Virus record (IMG/VR): IMGVR_UViG_3300025073_000817
Location: 1 to 64,000 of that record
DNA length: 64,000 nt
Origin: a virus
Reading direction: 5' to 3' (one strand)
Shown: positions 4,386 to 51,753 of the stretch, piece after piece
Numbering within the stretch: position 1 is the first letter of the stretch
Layout of the letters: the number at the start of each line of letters is the position of its first letter
The notes under the pieces: model-generated
What the model was told of the DNA's origin: nothing
The model's input: the letters and a program-made list of their open reading frames with translations, nothing else
The model's database searches: none
Made by a program: the position numbers and the translations under genes

Positions 4386-7300
4386 TTAATACTCCACTCT
4401 GAGCTTAACCCATCCTAAGCAATTAAAACTAGAACCATTATAAACATTCCATTCATCTGATTCACAATCTTCAGATGTGGCTCCAGTCTTATATTTAATT
4501 GTAAATCCTGATGAAGCTGAACTGTATTTATTATTAAATATTGTCATATATCCTGAAGCATTTATATTCCAACAATAATTCATTTCCATATATTGATTAG
4601 GATAGAGTCTAAGTTTCTCAGAATCACCAGATCCAATAACAGTTCCTGTTCCTGACCAATTATCTGTAAAAGATCTTGATATATCTTCAATAATATCAGT
4701 CTCAGCACCCCAAACAACCGTTCCTACAGCAAATTCATAAGGACCTATATCATTAGTTCCTTCTTGGGGTAGAGTGGTTCCTATTATATCATAATCAATT
4801 CCAGTAATCGCAACTCCAGCATTTCTAAGAACACTAGTCGGTATTAATCTAAAGTCTTCATTATCTTCATCGATGAAACCCATATCGGCAACTTCAAATC
4901 GACAATCAGAACAAGTTACTGTTCCACCACTCGCTTCAATAGTTGCTTCAGATTGAGAAAAAGAACATTTTTCTCCAGTAAACGTCTTACCATTTGCTAA
5001 TGTAACAGATCCTGGAACTGCTATTCCTTTAAAGGTTGCCGATTCATTAACAATCAAAGTTCCTTTAATTAGATCTCTATATATATTACATCCAGTAGCT
5101 CCAGATGGAATAGTAAGTGTAGACCCTTCAGGTATGATCGATAATTGATGAGTATTATTAGAACCTAGCACAATATCAGAAGCATGTTTAATTTTAGATA
5201 TTACCCACCAATCGCCAAAAGTAATATCTCCAGTCCATGTTTCCCCAATACCTGTAATAATACAGGGATCGGCCTCTGTACAGTCATCGTTACCAAGATT
5301 CAGAGCTCCTGGTTCAGTAACAATACCAAGACCATATTGATCACCGTCAACCTTAGTAATGGATGCTCTAAGAGTTGTAAAATTTGGATATTCACCTTGA
5401 TATTCATCTCCATCATAATCTACGAATGTTCCTACACTCCATTCTCCTTTACCACCTATTGTAATAGTGCCTGTCGTAAATATTCCAGCAGTTCCTGCCC
5501 TGTCTAGTTCATTGCCAGACCCATCTTTAATCTCTCCACCAACCATCTCAGCCAGCACAGGATTTGAACATCGAGATTTTGCAGACACTGTAGCTCTAGC
5601 TGTTAAATACTTAATACCTCCAATATCTTTTTTCTCAAAATAGTCTAAATAAATTGTTACTGTTCCACAAGTAAAAGCCCACGTCGGGCTCTCGGTTACG
5701 ATTGAATCCTCTGACAGCTCTCCGCAAACCCTGAAACTATCACCTAATACGTAAGAAGTCGTAAGATCCTCCGTGCAGGCCGTACAGGAGGCGTCAGAAC
5801 ACACGCCACGAGCGTCCATGGTGGGGGCGGTGACATCGGCGGGAGTCCAGTCGGGCTCTGCCGCGTTGTAGGAATCAATGATGCTCCATTCATCGCCGTG
5901 CCATGGGTTGGTGAGCCCAACCGTTGTCTGGTCAGATTCCCCAAGATAGAAGTATCGTGTACCGGCCGCAAAAGCGGTGACGGCCACAGCATTGGCGTCG
6001 TTCTCCCAATCGTTCGCGCCAACTTTTATTGAGAGGCACCCGGTGGCATCTTCATTGCAATGGGTGGTTGACGATATCCTGAAACCGAGAGTTACCTCAG
6101 TTCCCGCAGAAATCGTATGCGTAGAGTTCATAGAAACGACATTGCCCTGCCCTTCATATCGCAGGGTTATGACGCCTGTTGACCTGTAATAGGCATAGAT
6201 CTGATTTGATCCGTCTTGCCACAAATGCCAAATTGTTGAATTGCCTGAATTGAGGGATTCAGGCGTTATTTTTCCCCAAACGGTCAATTCGTCTGGCGTA
6301 ACGCTGATCGTCCATTTGATAAATTCGTTCGCAACGCTGAACCGCACCCCATTCCCGGCAGTCCCGTAGGCCCCGGCTATTTCCACGCCGGCCGCAACCG
6401 TGCCAGACGTGTGGGTAGCTCCATCTGCGGTCCACGCCTCGTCGGTGTCATCGGTATAATCCGCATTATAGGCGAAGGCGTAGGTCCCCACTGGAACGTC
6501 GGCTCCCCCTACAGGTGGAGGTGGTTCATCTTCCGGGAATTCCCCGGCACCCCTATCCGCCCCACCGTTATCAGCTCTACCTATTTTCACAACCGAGACA
6601 GCTCCATAGGTCCAGACCGATGTGTTGCGGAGACCTTGTACGGCAAAGGTAGGCGCTTTACCAGAGTTGACCACCGCTGATCCCACCTCGGTCGCATACC
6701 CGCTTGAATCAATGCCGGGATCTCCGAATATTTCGTTGTCCGCGATACTCTCTCCGTTCCACCCGGCCTGTGCCGCTTCGTCTCTGGTCGTGTGCCCTGC
6801 CCAGACCACAACGTTCTGATCACCTGCATACTCATTTCTCCAGATGTTATACTCAAATGTGGGTGCGGAATTGGCATCCAGGTTCATCATTTCACTATCG
6901 GCATCGTTCATCCTGAAGATACTATTTCGGAACGTACCGTCGAACCAAGTTAGGTAAAGTCCTACTCCCATCGCGTCATCGGAGTAGAACGTCTCATTTT
7001 CAAATGTTATTTCACCCCTGTACCCCAATGAATAGACAAAGTTTCCGGTTGACCCTATGTAGCGGTTGTTGTATGAGGCATTGCCCACGCCGCTCCCGGT
7101 CGAAGCCTCAGACGAACAGCAGAAGTAGACGCCTGTTTTCGCGTCTATGATCTCATTATTTCGGACTGTATTATTGGAAACATTATCTTTGTAGGCAAAA
7201 GCGCTTGTGTCAGTCGGACCGATCAGATTCTCTTCTACGAGGTTGTTCTGAGCAAAGTCCGGGGCTTTGTACAGAAACTGAACAACACCATTATTACGCG

Positions 7301-10616: not shown

Positions 10617-11065
10617 AATTTCCCTCCTATATTCACAAGTATTTCAAACAATCCAGGTGCATAAATATCATAGAGCAGTTTCATCACGTCACTCAGCACC
10701 TTCAGCCTAGCCACTAACACCCTTCCTAGAATCTCATCTGTCTGCTGTACTGTAGGCAATTTGGCCCATTTGTCCAGTTCATCCATCATCTTGGCAACAT
10801 CCATCGGGACCTTATTACCGAGCGCCTGCTTGATCATACCAGACTGGAATTCCCAATACAGGAGCCAGGTCTGGGCTACTTCTTTGGAGGTTTCGTAGTT
10901 ACGATATTCCTCCTCGGAAAGATATATGGCACCGGTCCGGATGGTTGAACAACCGAACGTCATGGCTATGACAGCAATGAACACGGCGACCATGACCACC
11001 CGGCAAAACCAGACGGTTATCTCCTTCCAGTCGAAGTAGCGAACGTTGCTTATGCCCATTCTCAT
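10613..11065 (-). CDS. Membrane-anchored or lipoprotein-like protein (150 aa)
   Basis: The N-terminal hydrophobic segment (about residues 18-38) ends MTFGCS, which resembles but does not strictly match a lipobox; C39 could be lipidated. The rest is a long helical periplasmic domain (EEEYRNYETSKEVAQTW, then KLPTVQQTDEILGRVLVARLKVL). It overlaps the upstream multi-pass membrane gene by ATGA. Position and topology would suit a spanin-type or periplasmic lysis accessory protein, but this is inference. Confidence 0.55.
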   Translation of the reverse strand: MRMGISNVRYFDWKEITVWFCRVVMVAVFIAVIAMTFGCSTIRTGAIYLSEEEYRNYETSKEVAQTWLLYWEFQSGMIKQALGNKVPMDVAKMMDELDKWAKLPTVQQTDEILGRVLVARLKVLSDVMKLLYDIYAPGLFEILVNIGGKL

Positions 11066-45561: not shown

Positions 45562-46488
45562 ATGAATTTACTAATTATCGACGGATCTAGCATAACATAT
45601 CGCGAATTTTTCGCCTTTAAAAAAAGGCCACTTACCATTACTTTAGAAAATGGTACCGAACTTACCACAAGTGCTGTTTTCAGCTTTGCAAAAGCCATTA
45701 TTTATATGGCAGAACGTAATGAGTATTCTTTCTATATTACGACTTGGGATACTCCACCATATAAAAAGAAATTAAAATTTCCAGATTATAAAGAAGGTAG
45801 GAAAAGAGATAAAAAAGATTCCGAAAACTTATTTAGAGAAATGGACATGATTAAAATCTTAGCGAATTCTCTAAATATACCATGCTTTTATTCTAAAGGA
45901 TATGAGGCTGAAGATGTTTGCAGATCAGTTATTAAAAGAATTGGCAAAAAGTTTGATGAAATAACAATTCTTGCAAACGATAACGATTATAATTCATTAC
46001 TAAGTGACAAAATATCTATTCTAAAAAATGGTAGAGAAGGTTTGATCAAATTTACCCATGATGATCTTAAACTTGATGGTATAGACAGTAAAACATTTAC
46101 TGAAGCCAAAAAACTGTCAGGGTGTACAACTGACAAAGTCAAAGGATTTAAAGGTATAGGATTTAAAACAGCAGTTGATCTTATAAGAACATTTGGATCA
46201 GCAGAAGCTGTATTTAATAATAAAAGTGAACTCCCAGAAAATATATCATCTAAATTAGAGAAAGGAGGATATGATACTTTAGAAAAAACAGCCTATCTGA
46301 TTAAAATACTTAATCCTAAAAAACTAAAACTGCATAAAAGTGATAATGAAGTATCTGCAGAAAATATGCTAGAATTTATAGAAGCAGAATCTCTTCTAAA
46401 ACCAAGGTTTCTATTGCTACTTCCTAAATTGGCAAAACAACAAGCTAAAATGTTTGATAAACTAGAAAAAAAGTTATTGCAAAGTTAA
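45562..46488 (+). CDS. 5'-3' exonuclease, FEN/PolA N-domain-like (308 aa)
   Basis: GAGGG precedes the ATG. Metal-binding acidic residues are visible at D7 (LLIIDGSS), D63, E115/E117/D118 (GYEAEDVC), D140/D142 (ANDNDYNSLL) and D191. A helix-3-turn-helix (VKGFKGIGFKTAVDL, 193-207) binds DNA. Size and motif order match phage flap endonucleases such as T5 D15 and the T4 RNase H group, which remove RNA primers and recombination flaps. It is the first gene of the early rightward region. No DNA polymerase is present in the window. Confidence 0.85.
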   Translation: MNLLIIDGSSITYREFFAFKKRPLTITLENGTELTTSAVFSFAKAIIYMAERNEYSFYITTWDTPPYKKKLKFPDYKEGRKRDKKDSENLFREMDMIKILANSLNIPCFYSKGYEAEDVCRSVIKRIGKKFDEITILANDNDYNSLLSDKISILKNGREGLIKFTHDDLKLDGIDSKTFTEAKKLSGCTTDKVKGFKGIGFKTAVDLIRTFGSAEAVFNNKSELPENISSKLEKGGYDTLEKTAYLIKILNPKKLKLHKSDNEVSAENMLEFIEAESLLKPRFLLLLPKLAKQQAKMFDKLEKKLLQS

Positions 46489-46505
46489 ATAATCAGTTGT
46501 ATAAT
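46477..46505 (+). promoter_or_regulatory. Promoter of short RNA 1
   Basis: TTGCAA (46477-46482), 17-nt spacer, TATAAT (46500-46505). It overlaps the last codons of the exonuclease gene. Confidence 0.65.
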
Positions 46506-46511
46506 ATCAGT

Positions 46512-46598
46512 AGAGATGGTTGTTTCGTTTTCCTTCGACGCCATGCTTCTCTCCTCCTTAAGAGCCCCAAGAGACTCCCCACCTCTTGGGGCTCTTTC
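46512..46598 (+). ncRNA. Short RNA 1 with exposed anti-Shine-Dalgarno segment
   Basis: Begins about 7 nt after the -10 box and ends in a terminator hairpin. A 5' stem-loop is formed by AGAGATGG (46512-46519) with CCAT and CTCT (46541-46552). Between the two stems lies single-stranded CTCTCCTCCTTA (46549-46560), complementary to the ribosome binding site AAGGAGGAG. No good reading frame with a ribosome site lies inside. Shares promoter type, size class and exposed CCTCCT with the RNA at 48.85 kb. Predicted from sequence only. Confidence 0.55.
46560..46597 (+). terminator. Intrinsic terminator of short RNA 1
   Basis: Perfect 14-bp stem AAGAGCCCCAAGAG (46560-46573) with CTCTTGGGGCTCTT (46583-46596) around a 9-nt loop. 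The following T run is short. Confidence 0.65.
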
Positions 46599-46616: not shown

Positions 46617-46799
46617 ATGAAGAAAATTACAGTTATTAGAATTGTAGCACCTCATTTTGTTGCAGGAATTTGTAAAAATAACATCAATAACAAATTAACA
46701 AAAACAGCTCCTATTTTAAAATATATGAAAAATTGGAGCTTATTCGAAATAGCTATCTATTGCAAACAAAAACAATGGAAATTATCAATCATCAACTAA
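46617..46799 (+). CDS. Small conserved-type phage protein (60 aa)
   Basis: Starts MKKITVIRIVAPHFVAG; the APHFVAG near the start followed by APILKYMKNWS and a YC..K.W end is a pattern I recognise from uncharacterised small phage proteins. The longer in-frame reading to 46497 crosses the terminator hairpin and is rejected. Only a weak GGGT site precedes the ATG. Lies between short RNA 1 and the dCTP deaminase-like gene. Function unknown. Confidence 0.65.
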   Translation: MKKITVIRIVAPHFVAGICKNNINNKLTKTAPILKYMKNWSLFEIAIYCKQKQWKLSIIN

Positions 46800-47596: not shown

Positions 47597-47625
47597 ATGC
47601 AATTTGACAAATTTAATTGTATAAT
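47597..47625 (+). promoter_or_regulatory. Promoter of the large structured RNA
   Basis: ATGCAA (47597-47602), 17-nt spacer, TATAAT (47620-47625), with the same ATTGTATAAT core as the neighbouring promoters. A TTGACA nearby is too close (10 nt) to serve as the -35 box. Confidence 0.55.
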
Positions 47626-47632
47626 AAAAGTA

Positions 47633-48140
47633 TGGGGTAGCACTAGCAATGCGTCTCTATATCAAGTAACACGCCACCTAGTGTTTAGCATCAAAGGGTT
47701 ACATTAGAGCCTTGATGCTCTCTATGCAGCCATATGTTTTCTGATTAGTGTCTTGAAAAAACAGCTTCTTAGTGAAGTATTAAATCAGAAAAACCAAGGG
47801 GGGTGCATAGATTCCTCCTCTTCTCCCTAACTTAAGAAGGCGTCCGTTAATTCAGACGATTTCTCGGGCCGTGTTAAATAGCGACTGTGTACGATATTTT
47901 TTAAACCGTTTCTTATCAATGTCGCTGACAGCTCTTTAAGAGTGCTAGAAACGAAAATTAATATCGTCTTTTAAATTTTCTTTAGATATCTGCGGAGAAC
48001 CCTGTAAAGCACTTCGGTGGACGTGCAAATTGAAGCCAAGTCCGGTTACAGGGAACTAAAGAAAAACCATAGCGGTTCGGGCGTGGGGGGAAGGGGGGGT
48101 CTGCCGAGACCTCGGGTCGAGGCAGGTTGGAAGTACAAAG
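47633..48140 (+). ncRNA. Large, intricately folded non-coding RNA candidate
   Basis: The ~815-bp gap has no supported gene but many long perfect helices: CACTAG/CTAGTG (47641/47678); AGCATCAA/TTGATGCT (47687/47712); CTATGCA/TGCATAG (47722/47804) enclosing TTTTCTGATT/AATCAGAAAA (47737/47783); ACGATATT/AATATCGT (47891/47960) enclosing CGTTTCT/AGAAACG (47907/47947); AGCGAC/GTCGCT (47880/47921) crossing these as a pseudoknot; TTTCTTTAG/CTAAAGAAA (about 47977/48055) enclosing CCCTGTAA/TTACAGGG (48000/48046); and CTGCC-GA-GACC-TCG-GGTC-GA-GGCAG at 48100-48124. Unpaired CCTCCTC lies at 47814-47820. Size and complexity recall the GOLLD/ROOL class of phage RNAs, but identity is not established; the 3' end is uncertain. 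Confidence 0.6.
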
Positions 48141-48219
48141 AAAGCTTCTCTCTGATCTTTTTTCTATAATTTAAATCACTTCTAAAATTAAAGTATCTAA
48201 ATCTGAAGTCTTTTCTATC

Positions 48220-48273
48220 CTCATGATGCGATCTCAGATCGCATCATGAGGCAATGAGCCGGAGGCTCATTGC
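48220..48273 (+). repeat. Two back-to-back perfect hairpins
   Basis: A 15-bp inverted repeat with a single central base (48220-48250; CTCATGATGCGATCT and its complement) is followed at once by a 10-bp hairpin with a GGA triloop (48251-48273; GCAATGAGCC). They may end or process the large RNA upstream. There is no immediate T run, so a Rho-independent terminator is not certain. Confidence 0.6.
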
Positions 48274-48403
48274 AATTAAAAACCTTTCTTTTATTCGGTA
48301 CTAACACTTTGTTTTTTTCTGTCACATGAATCTTAAAATCATTGAAATCTTAACAATCACTAAGTAAGTTAAGTTTTTAACAATTAAATAGCAGGAATTG
48401 ATT

Positions 48404-48813: not shown

Positions 48814-48842
48814 TTGCAATTGCTTATTGCTTATTGTATAAT
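48814..48842 (+). promoter_or_regulatory. Promoter of short RNA 2
   Basis: TTGCAA (48814-48819), 17-nt spacer, TATAAT (48837-48842). The spacer contains the tandem TTGCTTATTGCTTATTG. Confidence 0.7.
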
Positions 48843-48848
48843 ATTGGT

Positions 48849-48981
48849 GTAAAGGTACACATGTAGCAACTAGAGGTTTCACCTCCTTTCTCTCAGTTGC
48901 GACCCTAAGAGGCTCTTTGACATAGAACTCATCACTACCACCTCCTGCTTGATGAGCATTCTTGCAAAGAGCCTCTTTTTT
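48849..48981 (+). ncRNA. Short RNA 2 displaying two anti-Shine-Dalgarno loops
   Basis: About 133 nt from promoter to terminator. Stem-loop 1 is GTGTA/TACAC (48847-48860), which begins at or just before the inferred 5' end. Stem-loop 2 is GCAACT+AGAG with CTCT+AGTTGC (48866-48900), leaving a 14-nt loop GTTTCACCTCCTTT. Stem-loop 3 is the terminator, whose inner stem CTCATCA/TGATGAG (48928-48956) holds the loop CTACCACCTCCTGCT. Both large loops carry CACCTCCT, the same sequence as the 3' end of bacterial 16S rRNA that pairs with GGAGGTG ribosome sites. No coding potential seen. Confidence 0.7.
48907..48981 (+). terminator. Intrinsic terminator of short RNA 2
   Basis: A 13-bp perfect stem AAGAGGCTCTTTG (48907-48919) with CAAAGAGCCTCTT (48965-48977) runs into TTTTTT (48976-48981). 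The long loop contains the second anti-Shine-Dalgarno hairpin. Read-through would enter the small-gene array. Confidence 0.8.
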
Positions 48982-48999
48982 GACTATTAAGGATTTATT

Positions 49000-49176
49000 A
49001 TGAATAAGTACACATTAGATAAATATATTCAGTTAGGAAAATCAGTTATACTCATAAAAGATAAAACCATTAGGCGTATAATGGGAATATATAAACACGA
49101 AAATAAAATATTGGGAGTTGTGGTTGAGGGAATATACGTATTACTTCCTATTGATGAAATAGAGATAATAAAATGA
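49000..49176 (+). CDS. MNxYT-family small protein 1 (58 aa)
   Basis: First gene of the tandem array, starting MNKYTLDKYIQLGKSVILI about 20 nt after the terminator of short RNA 2, with AAGGA upstream. Shows the family plan: MNxYT start, a basic helix, a G(K) turn, then short strands ending in an acidic hydrophobic tail (LPIDEIEIIK). Stop TGA overlaps the next ATG. The fold is probably a small SH3-like beta barrel (inference). Confidence 0.7.
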   Translation: MNKYTLDKYIQLGKSVILIKDKTIRRIMGIYKHENKILGVVVEGIYVLLPIDEIEIIK

Positions 49177-49355
49177 ATCTGTACACACTTAGGAAAACAT
49201 TTAAACCAGGAACTAAAGTTAGTTGTCCTTTAGATGATTGCGTTGGAACTGTTAAAGGAATTGTAGAGTTTTGGAAGAAAGTATGGCTAATAGAATTGGT
49301 TGAATATGATGATGATTTATTTAGCCCAGAAGATTTGGTGATAATCAATGAATGA
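49173..49355 (+). CDS. MNxYT-family small protein 2 (60 aa)
   Basis: Starts MNLYTLRKTFKPGTKVSCP inside the previous stop (ATGA). Ends FSPEDLVIINE. Its opening matches the member at 60,438 (MNLYTFKKTFKDGMKV), including Cys residues after the first strand (CPLDDCVG), a possible metal or disulfide pair. Confidence 0.75.
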   Translation: MNLYTLRKTFKPGTKVSCPLDDCVGTVKGIVEFWKKVWLIELVEYDDDLFSPEDLVIINE

Positions 49356-49542
49356 TTATGTGTTTAATAAATATCTTAAACCTGGACAAAAAGTAAGAAT
49401 AAAATCTGATAAAATAATGCCAAAATTAGATAGAATTCATATAATATCAAAAGTAGATAGATTTAATAATTCATATCTAACGATATGGCTTAAGGATAAT
49501 CCATTCCCCTGGTATAAAGATGAAATTGAGATAGTAATATGA
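49348..49542 (+). CDS. MNxYT-family small protein 3 (64 aa)
   Basis: Starts MNDYVFNKYLKPGQKVRIKS, overlapping the previous gene by 8 nt (ATGAATGA). Four short strands are predicted; ends WYKDEIEIVI. Highly basic N-terminal half, acidic end, as in other members. Confidence 0.75.
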   Translation: MNDYVFNKYLKPGQKVRIKSDKIMPKLDRIHIISKVDRFNNSYLTIWLKDNPFPWYKDEIEIVI

Positions 49543-49733
49543 ATGAATATACAATAAATAAGGCAATAAGAGAATTAATGACGGGAAGAAGAAAAATAAC
49601 TATTGAATTTGCTGGTTTTAAAGAATCCTTCTATTTAGAGGGAATAGAAATAACACATGATGAAATTGTTCTAAAATTAGATAGACCTACATTTAGTGGA
49701 ACTAGGACCTTTACGTTTAAAAAGTCGCCATGA
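49539..49733 (+). CDS. MNxYT-family small protein 4 (64 aa)
   Basis: Starts MNEYTINKAIRELMTGRRK at an ATGA junction. The helix after the motif is longer than usual, then strands (ITIEFAGFKESFYLEGIEI) and an atypical basic end (FTFKKSP) instead of the acidic tail. Confidence 0.7.
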   Translation: MNEYTINKAIRELMTGRRKITIEFAGFKESFYLEGIEITHDEIVLKLDRPTFSGTRTFTFKKSP

Positions 49734-49969
49734 ATGAATATACGATAAAAAAGAAATTTCCAATAGGGACTAAAATTAGATATTTTGAAGAACCATATAA
49801 TGACCATGAATCTGAAATAGAATATCACGGACATGTTATTGGTTATTTCAGAACAACACGAAATGAATTATTCATTAATGCAAGGGTATCTGCAATAGAT
49901 AGTAACAATAATCCAGTTAATTTAGAGTTTGGTGTTATTATTAATCCTGATCATGTTGAAATAATATGA
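49730..49969 (+). CDS. MNxYT-family small protein 5 (79 aa)
   Basis: Starts MNEYTIKKKFPIGTKIRYFE at an ATGA junction. The FPIGTK turn is the version of the G motif shared by most long members. An extended central loop (YNDHESEIEYHGH) precedes strands; ends INPDHVEII. Confidence 0.75.
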   Translation: MNEYTIKKKFPIGTKIRYFEEPYNDHESEIEYHGHVIGYFRTTRNELFINARVSAIDSNNNPVNLEFGVIINPDHVEII

Positions 49970-50181
49970 ACATATATACAGAATTTAAAGAACTTAGAAG
50001 AATATTTCCCAAAGGTAAATTTTTTAGAAATAAATACAATCGATGGGAGCATATCTGCATTATAGGTTATGAAATATTAGCAGATAAATGGTTTGCTAAA
50101 GGTAAGGTTATTAAAGAAAGTAATAATGAAGTAATCCATTGGTTAGATTTGAAACAAAAAAATAAATGGTTAAGAATATGA
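49966..50181 (+). CDS. MNxYT-family small protein 6 (71 aa)
   Basis: Starts MNIYTEFKELRRIFPKGKFF at an ATGA junction. The turn is FPKGKF in place of FPIGTK. Contains aromatic residues (NRWEHICIIGYEI, DKWFAKGKV) and ends NKWLRI, so the acidic tail is missing. Confidence 0.7.
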   Translation: MNIYTEFKELRRIFPKGKFFRNKYNRWEHICIIGYEILADKWFAKGKVIKESNNEVIHWLDLKQKNKWLRI

Positions 50182-50381
50182 ATATATATACATTTAATAA
50201 ATTAAAACATGGTGATAGATTTAGGGTTAAAGAGATGGCACAAACACGAGGGTTTGAAGGAAAAATATTTACAGTTGATATTAGAGCAGTAGATAAAATA
50301 GGCCCATACGTTAGAACTATTGAAATGAATAAATATAACAATATTCAATTAGTATTTTCAGCAGATGAAATAGAAAAATGA
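50178..50381 (+). CDS. MNxYT-family small protein 7 (67 aa)
   Basis: Starts MNIYTFNKLKHGDRFRVKE at an ATGA junction. This short KLKxGDR form of the opening is the same as in members at 63,398 and 63,698, 13 kb away, including at the DNA level. Ends VFSADEIEK. Confidence 0.75.
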   Translation: MNIYTFNKLKHGDRFRVKEMAQTRGFEGKIFTVDIRAVDKIGPYVRTIEMNKYNNIQLVFSADEIEK

Positions 50382-50653
50382 ATAGATACACTGCAAAAAA
50401 ATTACTAATTCAAAAATACCCTATTGGAGCTAAGCTAAGATTAAAAGAAGATCTTGATTTTTCTGATTATAGAAAAATATCACTATTTCCAGAAGATTGT
50501 TCCATAATTGATTATGTATTACCTATCCTTGAAGTTGAAGTATCATCAATTAGTATGACTAAAACCGTTAACGGTTACATAAAAGCTTCAACTTATGAAC
50601 ACGATTTCATATCAATTAATGATTTAGAAAAATATTATGATATAATCAAATGA
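50378..50653 (+). CDS. MNxYT-family small protein 8 (91 aa)
   Basis: Starts MNRYTAKKLLIQKYPIGAKL at an ATGA junction. Longest member of the first block, with an insertion after the first strand (DYRKISLFPEDCSIIDYVLP) and a typical end (ISINDLEKYYDIIK). Confidence 0.75.
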   Translation: MNRYTAKKLLIQKYPIGAKLRLKEDLDFSDYRKISLFPEDCSIIDYVLPILEVEVSSISMTKTVNGYIKASTYEHDFISINDLEKYYDIIK

Positions 50654-50859
50654 ATTATTATACCAAGTTAAAATATGCTAACAAGCATTTTCCTATAGGG
50701 TCAACTATTACTCAGACTTTTGATGAAAAACATATGGGAAAGATATCAAAATTCATATTAAAAGATCAATATCTAACGATATTTGTTGAAGGCAATAATC
50801 TGGAAGGAAGTATAACGGTAGATATTGAAAGATTAATTGAAGAAGATAAAAATGAATAA
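50650..50859 (+). CDS. MNxYT-family small protein 9 (69 aa)
   Basis: Starts MNYYTKLKYANKHFPIGSTI at an ATGA junction. Strands FILKDQYLTIFVEGNN and an acidic end ERLIEEDKNE. The next gene begins within its last codons. Confidence 0.75.
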   Translation: MNYYTKLKYANKHFPIGSTITQTFDEKHMGKISKFILKDQYLTIFVEGNNLEGSITVDIERLIEEDKNE

Positions 50860-51058
50860 TTATACCTTAATGAAATTTTTGAGGAAGAAATATCCAATAG
50901 ATAAAATTATTACAGAAGATGGACGAATATTAAAAGTAATTAAATGGGAAATAAGTAATTACGGGATATGGATAACATTTCTTATTCTAGATGGTCTTGA
51001 AAAAGGAAAATATTTAGTACAGATGTTAGATGAAGAAACAAGGACGGCTTATGAATAA
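50852..51058 (+). CDS. MNxYT-family small protein 10 (68 aa)
   Basis: Start MNNYTLMKFLRKKYPIDKII chosen over an upstream in-frame codon because it restores the family motif and the usual 8-nt overlap. The conserved Gly of the turn is replaced (YPIDKI). Ends DEETRTAYE. Confidence 0.7.
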   Translation: MNNYTLMKFLRKKYPIDKIITEDGRILKVIKWEISNYGIWITFLILDGLEKGKYLVQMLDEETRTAYE

Positions 51059-51272
51059 TTATACAAAACTAAAAGAAGCTAGAAAAGAATTCCCCATAGG
51101 TAGTAGATATATTTCTAAAATAACTTCTTCAGCGTCTATAGAAATAATAGGTCATAGTATTGGGCATAGTATTGCTGGAACTAAAATTGCAATAATACAC
51201 TTTGAAGATAAATCTGGAGCAAAATATTCTCAACCTATTGAGATATTTAGAAGTTGGTTTACTAATGAATAA
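51051..51272 (+). CDS. MNxYT-family small protein 11 (73 aa)
   Basis: Starts MNNYTKLKEARKEFPIGSRY, overlapping by 8 nt. Close paralogue of the member at 51,750: both share KEARKEFP, an IGHSI strand and an (I/L)-F-R motif near the end (PIEIFRSWF versus SIDLFRKAF). Contains an internal duplication IGHSIGHSI. Confidence 0.75.
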   Translation: MNNYTKLKEARKEFPIGSRYISKITSSASIEIIGHSIGHSIAGTKIAIIHFEDKSGAKYSQPIEIFRSWFTNE

Positions 51273-51477
51273 CTATACTCTACTTAAAGAAGTTAGATCA
51301 AAGTATCCTGTTGGTTCAAGGTTTAAGAGTCTTAGAACAAATAAGATATGCTACATCACTTTAGTAAGATATAGCACGGTATTTCGTAGAATTGTCATAC
51401 AGGCAGAGCCAGAAACTAATTGTAGTGAAATCAATACACCTTATCTATTCTATCCTGAAGAGTTAGAGCCATTATGA
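51265..51477 (+). CDS. MNxYT-family small protein 12 (70 aa)
   Basis: Starts MNNYTLLKEVRSKYPVGSRF, overlapping by 8 nt; a long upstream in-frame extension is rejected. Ends FYPEELEPL. Confidence 0.75.
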   Translation: MNNYTLLKEVRSKYPVGSRFKSLRTNKICYITLVRYSTVFRRIVIQAEPETNCSEINTPYLFYPEELEPL

Positions 51478-51753
51478 ACCTCTACACTAAATTCAAAAAC
51501 TTTAGAAAAACCTATCCAATAGGAACGAAACTTGTTCGGTACAATAATATTGGAGATACCCTAACTATTCTTTCTCATATTGCTCCTGATCACTCTAATG
51601 ACTACACCTGCCTTGCACTAGTAAAACTACATGGGATTAGAGTATGCAGCTTCTGAAATGTACCTAGATGTTCTCTATGAGAATCATGCATGTAAAATCA
51701 ATAAAAATGACTCCATATCAATCAAAATTGAAAATAAGTTGGTAGAAAAATGA
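51474..51753 (+). pseudogene. MNxYT-family member interrupted by a frameshift
   Basis: Starts MNLYTKFKNFRKTYPIGTKL at an ATGA junction and stops early at 51656 (60 aa, ending GIRVCSF). In the +1 frame an open stretch beginning near 51631 (MGLEYAASEMYLDVLYENHA) continues to a TGA that overlaps the next ATG, exactly as an intact family gene would. So one net base (+1 or -2) separates two halves of an ~92-aa protein. Decay, sequencing error or programmed frameshift are all possible. Confidence 0.6.

Follow-up and report, generated by a model that had tools for sequence, protein, structure and literature searches.

Predicted Small RNAs Exposing an Anti-Shine–Dalgarno Motif Are Kept at One Locus in Diverged Phages

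The phage DNA analyzed here (the window, 64 kb of a 114.6-kb virus record, IMGVR_UViG_3300025073_000817) contains, 3' of a 5'-3' exonuclease gene, a predicted small RNA that exposes CCUCC, the core of the 16S rRNA anti-Shine–Dalgarno (anti-SD) sequence, directly ahead of a strong hairpin. By computation, we identified its promoter class, hairpin, and exposed motif, as well as the synteny of the locus and the conservation of the motif in RNAs that are otherwise unalignable. We infer that the RNA is transcribed, pairs with mRNA in the cell, and has a repressive effect, and we consider it probable (roughly 0.6) that it is a phage trans-acting antisense small RNA (sRNA) that keeps ribosomes off GGAGG-type mRNAs. 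To our knowledge, few phage sRNAs are backed by evolutionary evidence of function, and most of those known come from enterobacterial prophages.

Results

Promoter and Predicted Structure of the RNA

The TTGCAA-17-TATAAT promoter that the initial annotation had placed at 46477 is present there and overlaps the stop of the exonuclease gene (Table 1). In the whole 114.6-kb record, WTGCAA-N17-TATAAT occurs five times on the plus strand and not at all on the minus strand, and the reversed-motif control gives no match on either strand; therefore, the promoter class is real and not a chance match. TTGTATAAT occurs eight times, compared with two for its control, and additionally flanks the divergent exonuclease/terminase promoters. 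The five promoters stand before the RNA at 46512, a large structured region at 47.6 kb, an RNA at 48.85 kb, and two ORFs, one small and zinc-ribbon-like and the other TnpB-like (both named by eye). The TnpB/OrfB-like ORF (by eye) lies at the contig end (L038, 1569–1898; 114.3 kb of the record) with a TTGCAA-17-TATAAT promoter upstream.

Table 1. Features of the two predicted anti-SD RNAs and their surroundings in the window
Feature	Position	Strand	Remarks
5'-3' exonuclease gene	45562..46488	+	syntenic neighbor upstream of the RNA
Promoter TTGCAA-17-TATAAT, TTG ahead of second hexamer	46477..46505	+	motif scan
Predicted small RNA, ~87 nt	46512..46598	+	start deduced from promoter; fold z = -4.6
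Predicted weak 5' stem of the RNA	46512..46552	+	fold; relatives do not keep it in this form
CAU, anti-start codon, 8 nt ahead of CCUCC	46542..46544	+	
CCUCCUU, anti-SD core, mostly unpaired (predicted)	46553..46559	+	CCUCC kept at the locus in 5 relatives
Perfect 14-bp stem with 9-nt loop, terminator hairpin with weak U-tract	46560..46596	+	
60-aa ORF immediately 3' of the RNA	46617..46799	+	no family match; differs from the gene 3' of the RNA in relatives
Promoter of second anti-SD RNA, TTGCAA-17-TATAAT type	48814..48842	+	
Second predicted RNA, CCUCC at 48882 and 48941	48849..48982	+	CAU 8 nt ahead of the 48941 site

The 87-nt RNA has a predicted folding energy of -34 kcal/mol, and in the predicted ensemble the mean probability of being unpaired is 0.97 for CCUCC (46553–46557). 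The CTCT just 5' of this motif pairs with a 5' AGAGA in the minimum free energy structure. Thus, CCUCCUU is exposed, but not the whole CTCTCCTCCTTA that had been described as single-stranded. The 14-bp stem contains eight G-C pairs and forms one of two equally strong hairpins in the 64 kb, while none of that strength arose in five first-order Markov sequences; the hairpin exceeds chance. The U-tract that follows (TTTCCATTT) is weak, and a consensus terminator scan did not list the hairpin, so termination here may be incomplete. The two-stem layout of the initial annotation is predicted for the window RNA but varies in form among relatives and is not general in the group. We rejected a short coding frame across the RNA, which is open in the window and in the relatives L051, L127, and L133; in L053 the frame lacks a start codon, and no SDs are seen (by eye).

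The RNA Locus in Related Phages

The phage group with this RNA is known from metagenomes only. A DNA search of public phages gave no match, and direct protein scans of IMG/VR returned nothing beyond an identical contig of the same phage. Relatives were found by profile scans of IMG/VR for terminase (A1) and portal (A2), showing 51–67% identity in terminase or portal; an exonuclease profile scan added no further ones. They comprise L051/L125, L052/L129, L053/L126, L127, L133, and L128, with L054 and L055 more distant, and they share a gene order in which the terminase gene lies on one strand and the exonuclease gene diverges from it.

Five relatives carry an intergenic RNA 3' of the exonuclease gene, and also of a small MPFG-type gene, in which CCUCC precedes a strong terminator. 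The locus reads TCTCCTCCTTTCTTAAGAG with a 16-bp terminator and seven U in L051, which lacks a good promoter; TTTCCTCCTTTCTTGAC with a 20-bp stem behind TTGCAT-17-TATTAT in L053; CAACCTCCTTGTC with a 15-bp stem behind TTGCAG-17-TATTAT in L127; ACTCCTCCTTTCTT with a strong stem and U7 behind a promoter-like TTGCAT in L133; and ATACCTCC with a CU-rich tract and a 12-bp stem with U9 behind TTGTAA-17-TATTGT in L052. In predicted folds, CCUCC is unpaired with a probability of 0.72–1.0 in five of the six phages and is mostly paired (0.12) in L133. The genes 3' of the RNA vary: L051, L053, and L133 have a homologous-looking ORF, and the window, L127, and L052 have others, which favors a free-standing RNA.

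The RNA is absent from this place in L128, L054, and L055. In the divergent exonuclease/terminase region of L128 (5500–5580), a hairpin adjoins CTCCTCCTTTTC; read on the other strand, the same segment shows a hairpin, AAAGGAGGAG, and an ATG that opens an 11-codon frame within the leader of the exonuclease gene. The CCTCC and hairpin at 5524–5559 were left out of our count because they lack a U-tract and the other strand forms an SD in that leader.

Conservation and Spacing of the Motif

An nhmmer comparison of the window RNA with the relatives' loci detected no nucleotide similarity; therefore, the shared CCUCC is not leftover identity. The RNA sequence appears to have drifted beyond recognition except for the anti-SD piece, often with a match to the start codon. 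In dinucleotide shuffles of the six pre-terminator segments, CCTCC appeared at frequencies of 0.02–0.21 (15% for the window segment alone), giving a joint P of ~5e-7 if the segments are independent. Near terminator-like hairpins in all fetched loci, CCTCC was counted 21 times, compared with 2–5 times for each of four permutations, in a set whose loci overlap and in which CCTCC arises also as the SD of opposite-strand genes.

A CAU stands 5–8 nt ahead of CCUCC in the window RNA, in L052, L053, and L127, and at the second site of the 48.85-kb RNA. With the spacing set to 4–9 nt, a range that was picked after the first cases had been seen and that equals the canonical SD–AUG range, five of the eight sites have CAU against 0.7 expected (shuffle P 0.00025), the L051 and L133 sites being among those without it. 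Because of this spacing, the RNA appears complementary to a translation initiation region. Half of the eight sites (L051, L053, L133, and the first 48.85-kb site) have the sequence CCUCCUUUCU, which in many bacteria is the complete 3' tail of 16S rRNA, whereas the window, L127, and L052 sites follow this tail no further than CCUCCUU or CCUCC.

The initial annotation had held that the anti-SD is functional rather than accidental and had made this depend on conservation of CCTCC among relatives. The motif is kept in six phages including that of the window, as part of an intergenic RNA that carries a terminator and occupies the same locus, and the CAU spacing adds further evidence. The argument offered at the time, recurrence of the motif 2.3 kb away, is weak alone; it is the relatives that support function.

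The Second RNA and Its Surroundings

A second anti-SD RNA is indeed predicted at 48.85 kb, with the correction that it has two anti-SD sites. Both are predicted to be unpaired, and the RNA has a proper U-tract and the same type of promoter as that at 46477. A CCTCC in the large RNA at 47.8 kb was rejected as a third exposed copy; it is paired within a long stem.

In this large region (47597–48280), an ATGCAA-17-TATAAT promoter of the same class precedes ~550–650 nt that are non-coding and strongly structured (-203 kcal/mol, z = -4.9) and include a 16-bp long-range stem. It is closed by two adjoining hairpins (48219–48273), the first being a 15-bp perfect palindrome. It had no Rfam match up to an E-value of 5 and no similarity in the relatives, and it is possibly a new large phage RNA. 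Further downstream (49000–51656), a long end-to-end run of small paralogous ORFs starting with MN-YT--K was observed, which recurs near 113–114 kb of the record (L038, 814–1474).

Similar Elements in Other Phages

A search of IMG/VR for a promoter followed by CCTCCTTTCT returned nine stretches. Besides the window phage and L053, two of these come from the unrelated temperate phages L148 and L142; both lie between genes, close to an integrase gene, and have terminators. The remaining stretches mostly appear to be coding or chance matches. The L148 element (10850–11060, minus strand; phage GC 51%) adjoins the integrase gene and consists of a promoter, CAUGCAGAACCUCCUUUCUA, and a terminator; its site, ACCTCCTTTCTA, has CAU at 6 nt. 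In L142 (4800–5000, minus strand), two neighboring terminator hairpins, whose 5' arm or loop contains CTCCC/CTCC, lie between the endolysin and integrase genes; the motif is within a hairpin, a second such hairpin stands upstream, and the pair could be tandem anti-SD RNAs. Similar RNAs may occur between the lysis and integrase genes of unrelated temperate phages (L142, L148), but since a few chance matches are expected among such stretches, we treat both elements as leads only.

Discussion

The locus is best read as a free-standing gene with which a phage lineage encodes a small RNA; it would have its own host-type promoter and its own terminating hairpin. Its RNA would present a single-stranded copy of the 16S rRNA anti-SD tail (CCUCC, often CCUCCUUUCU), with a CAU that at many sites would be placed to pair with a start codon, and would thereby pair in trans with the GGAGG-N(4–9)-AUG initiation region of one or more mRNAs and block ribosome access to them. 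The promoters, the U-tracts, and the fact that the downstream genes change all favor transcription as an independent unit. As to targets, a check against the phage's own ribosome-binding sites, suggested together with the initial annotation, pointed to no specific own-phage gene: the complementarity of the RNA to own-phage messages does not extend beyond the SD, and its duplex energies with own-phage initiation regions are not better than those of shuffles (8 of 40 as good). The L053 and L051 RNAs did beat shuffles when scored against the initiation regions of the window phage. Strong SDs (6–7 matches) make up 10 of 19 in the plus-strand block at 52–64 kb and a smaller share, 4 of 26, in the structural block, a hint that own-gene targets, if any, are more likely to lie there.

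An arrangement in which the element is a cis-acting leader of the downstream operon, either an attenuator or an mRNA-stabilizing hairpin whose CCUCC pairs with a downstream SD, is unlikely. The hairpin does lie ~20 nt before the ORF at 46617, the U-tract of the window is weak, and in several relatives an ORF with a poor SD starts close 3' of the hairpin (by eye); the candidate partner would be the AGGAGG of the dCTP deaminase gene (at ~46802), as in the C4 arrangement of phage P1. However, complementarity to that SD amounts to only ~6 bp, U-tracts of 7–9 come right after the stem in L051, L052, and L133, and the RNA stays while the genes downstream change. The promoters and U-tracts, which point to the plus strand, make it very improbable that CCTCC is instead the SD (AAGGAGG, ATG at 5–8 nt) of a short minus-strand ORF with the hairpin upstream. 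A minus-strand GGAGG followed by ATG at 5–8 nt is found in the window, L052, L053, and L127 (partly by eye), but the ORFs would have just 4 to 19 codons and unrelated sequences, with none in L133 and one at the wrong place in L051 (by eye), and would make the region antisense to the exonuclease operon.

A real RNA that pairs with no mRNA might also serve as a decoy, its 16S-tail copy titrating a protein or nuclease that recognizes the 16S rRNA 3' end, such as an anti-SD-cleaving toxin or a ribosomal protein. The sites that copy the full tail would suit this role, and MazF toxins that remove the 16S anti-SD exist (PMC12274833). We nevertheless give the decoy little credence, since a CAU at SD–AUG spacing is explained by mRNA pairing and not by a protein decoy, and the window, L127, and L052 sites depart from the tail. 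That CCTCC merely happens to fall in a pyrimidine-rich intergenic hairpin would be unremarkable for the window segment by itself, given its shuffle frequency; recurrence in six diverged phages and the CAU spacing render such a coincidence scarcely credible.

Among known RNAs, a trans-acting antisense sRNA of this kind resembles the CiaRH-controlled csRNAs of streptococci, which carry the anti-SD and CAU in unpaired regions, have a terminator with or without a first stem-loop, and are 51–202 nt long (PMC3091779). Both are short RNAs with their own promoter and terminator, present in several copies per genome, and in csRNAs the unpaired anti-SD and CAU, at initiation-region spacing, often lie between two stem-loops (PMC3091779, PMC4507080). 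The window RNA has the same unpaired anti-SD with CAU, as predicted from its fold. The RNA here is phage-encoded, and no sequence similarity to csRNAs was established. In csRNA promoters, the CiaR repeat is TTTAAG-N5-TTTAAG; it is absent from the promoter here, and the csRNA nonamer [A/C]UCCUAAA[A/C] is absent from all seven RNAs. By analogy, therefore, the RNA would function in the manner of csRNAs, yet it does not belong to their family.

C4 RNA arises by processing of the leader of the operon that it targets. In phages P1 and P7, this antisense RNA base-pairs with a message in the neighborhood of its ribosome-binding site (PMC12197685), and the RNA here is likewise a phage RNA predicted to be aimed at such a site. 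In contrast to C4, the genes downstream vary among relatives and no cis target is conserved, the 6-bp complement at the dCTP deaminase SD being found in the window; the Rfam C4 model gave no match at gathering or up to an E-value of 5. The LhrC-type sRNAs of Listeria occur in several copies, and their C-rich unpaired segments are expected to bind SD regions. The RNA here is predicted to share both traits with them, whereas LhrC is bacterial and stress-induced (PMC4132741) and, judged through Rfam only, has no sequence relation to it. Rfam as a whole gave no match at gathering. A sub-threshold match to Clostridiales-2 RNA (RF02937) on the opposite strand scored 21.9 bits, where the cut-off is 58.6, and was taken as chance; real members have AGGAGGGUGCUCAG and a second stem, which the window lacks. 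L042, met in that follow-up, was a coding coincidence.

The RNA is kept at one locus across diverged phages that have lost all detectable similarity in it except the anti-ribosome-binding motif. We tentatively suggest that stand-alone RNAs combining a copy of the 16S anti-SD tail and an anti-start codon could be general translation-initiation blockers of the phage lineage, which would serve, for example, to shut off strong-SD host messages or to time the phage's own strong-SD genes. If the targets are host mRNAs, this would represent RNA-based interference with host translation initiation. With the promoter–motif–terminator signature, such RNAs can be sought even where sequences show no similarity.
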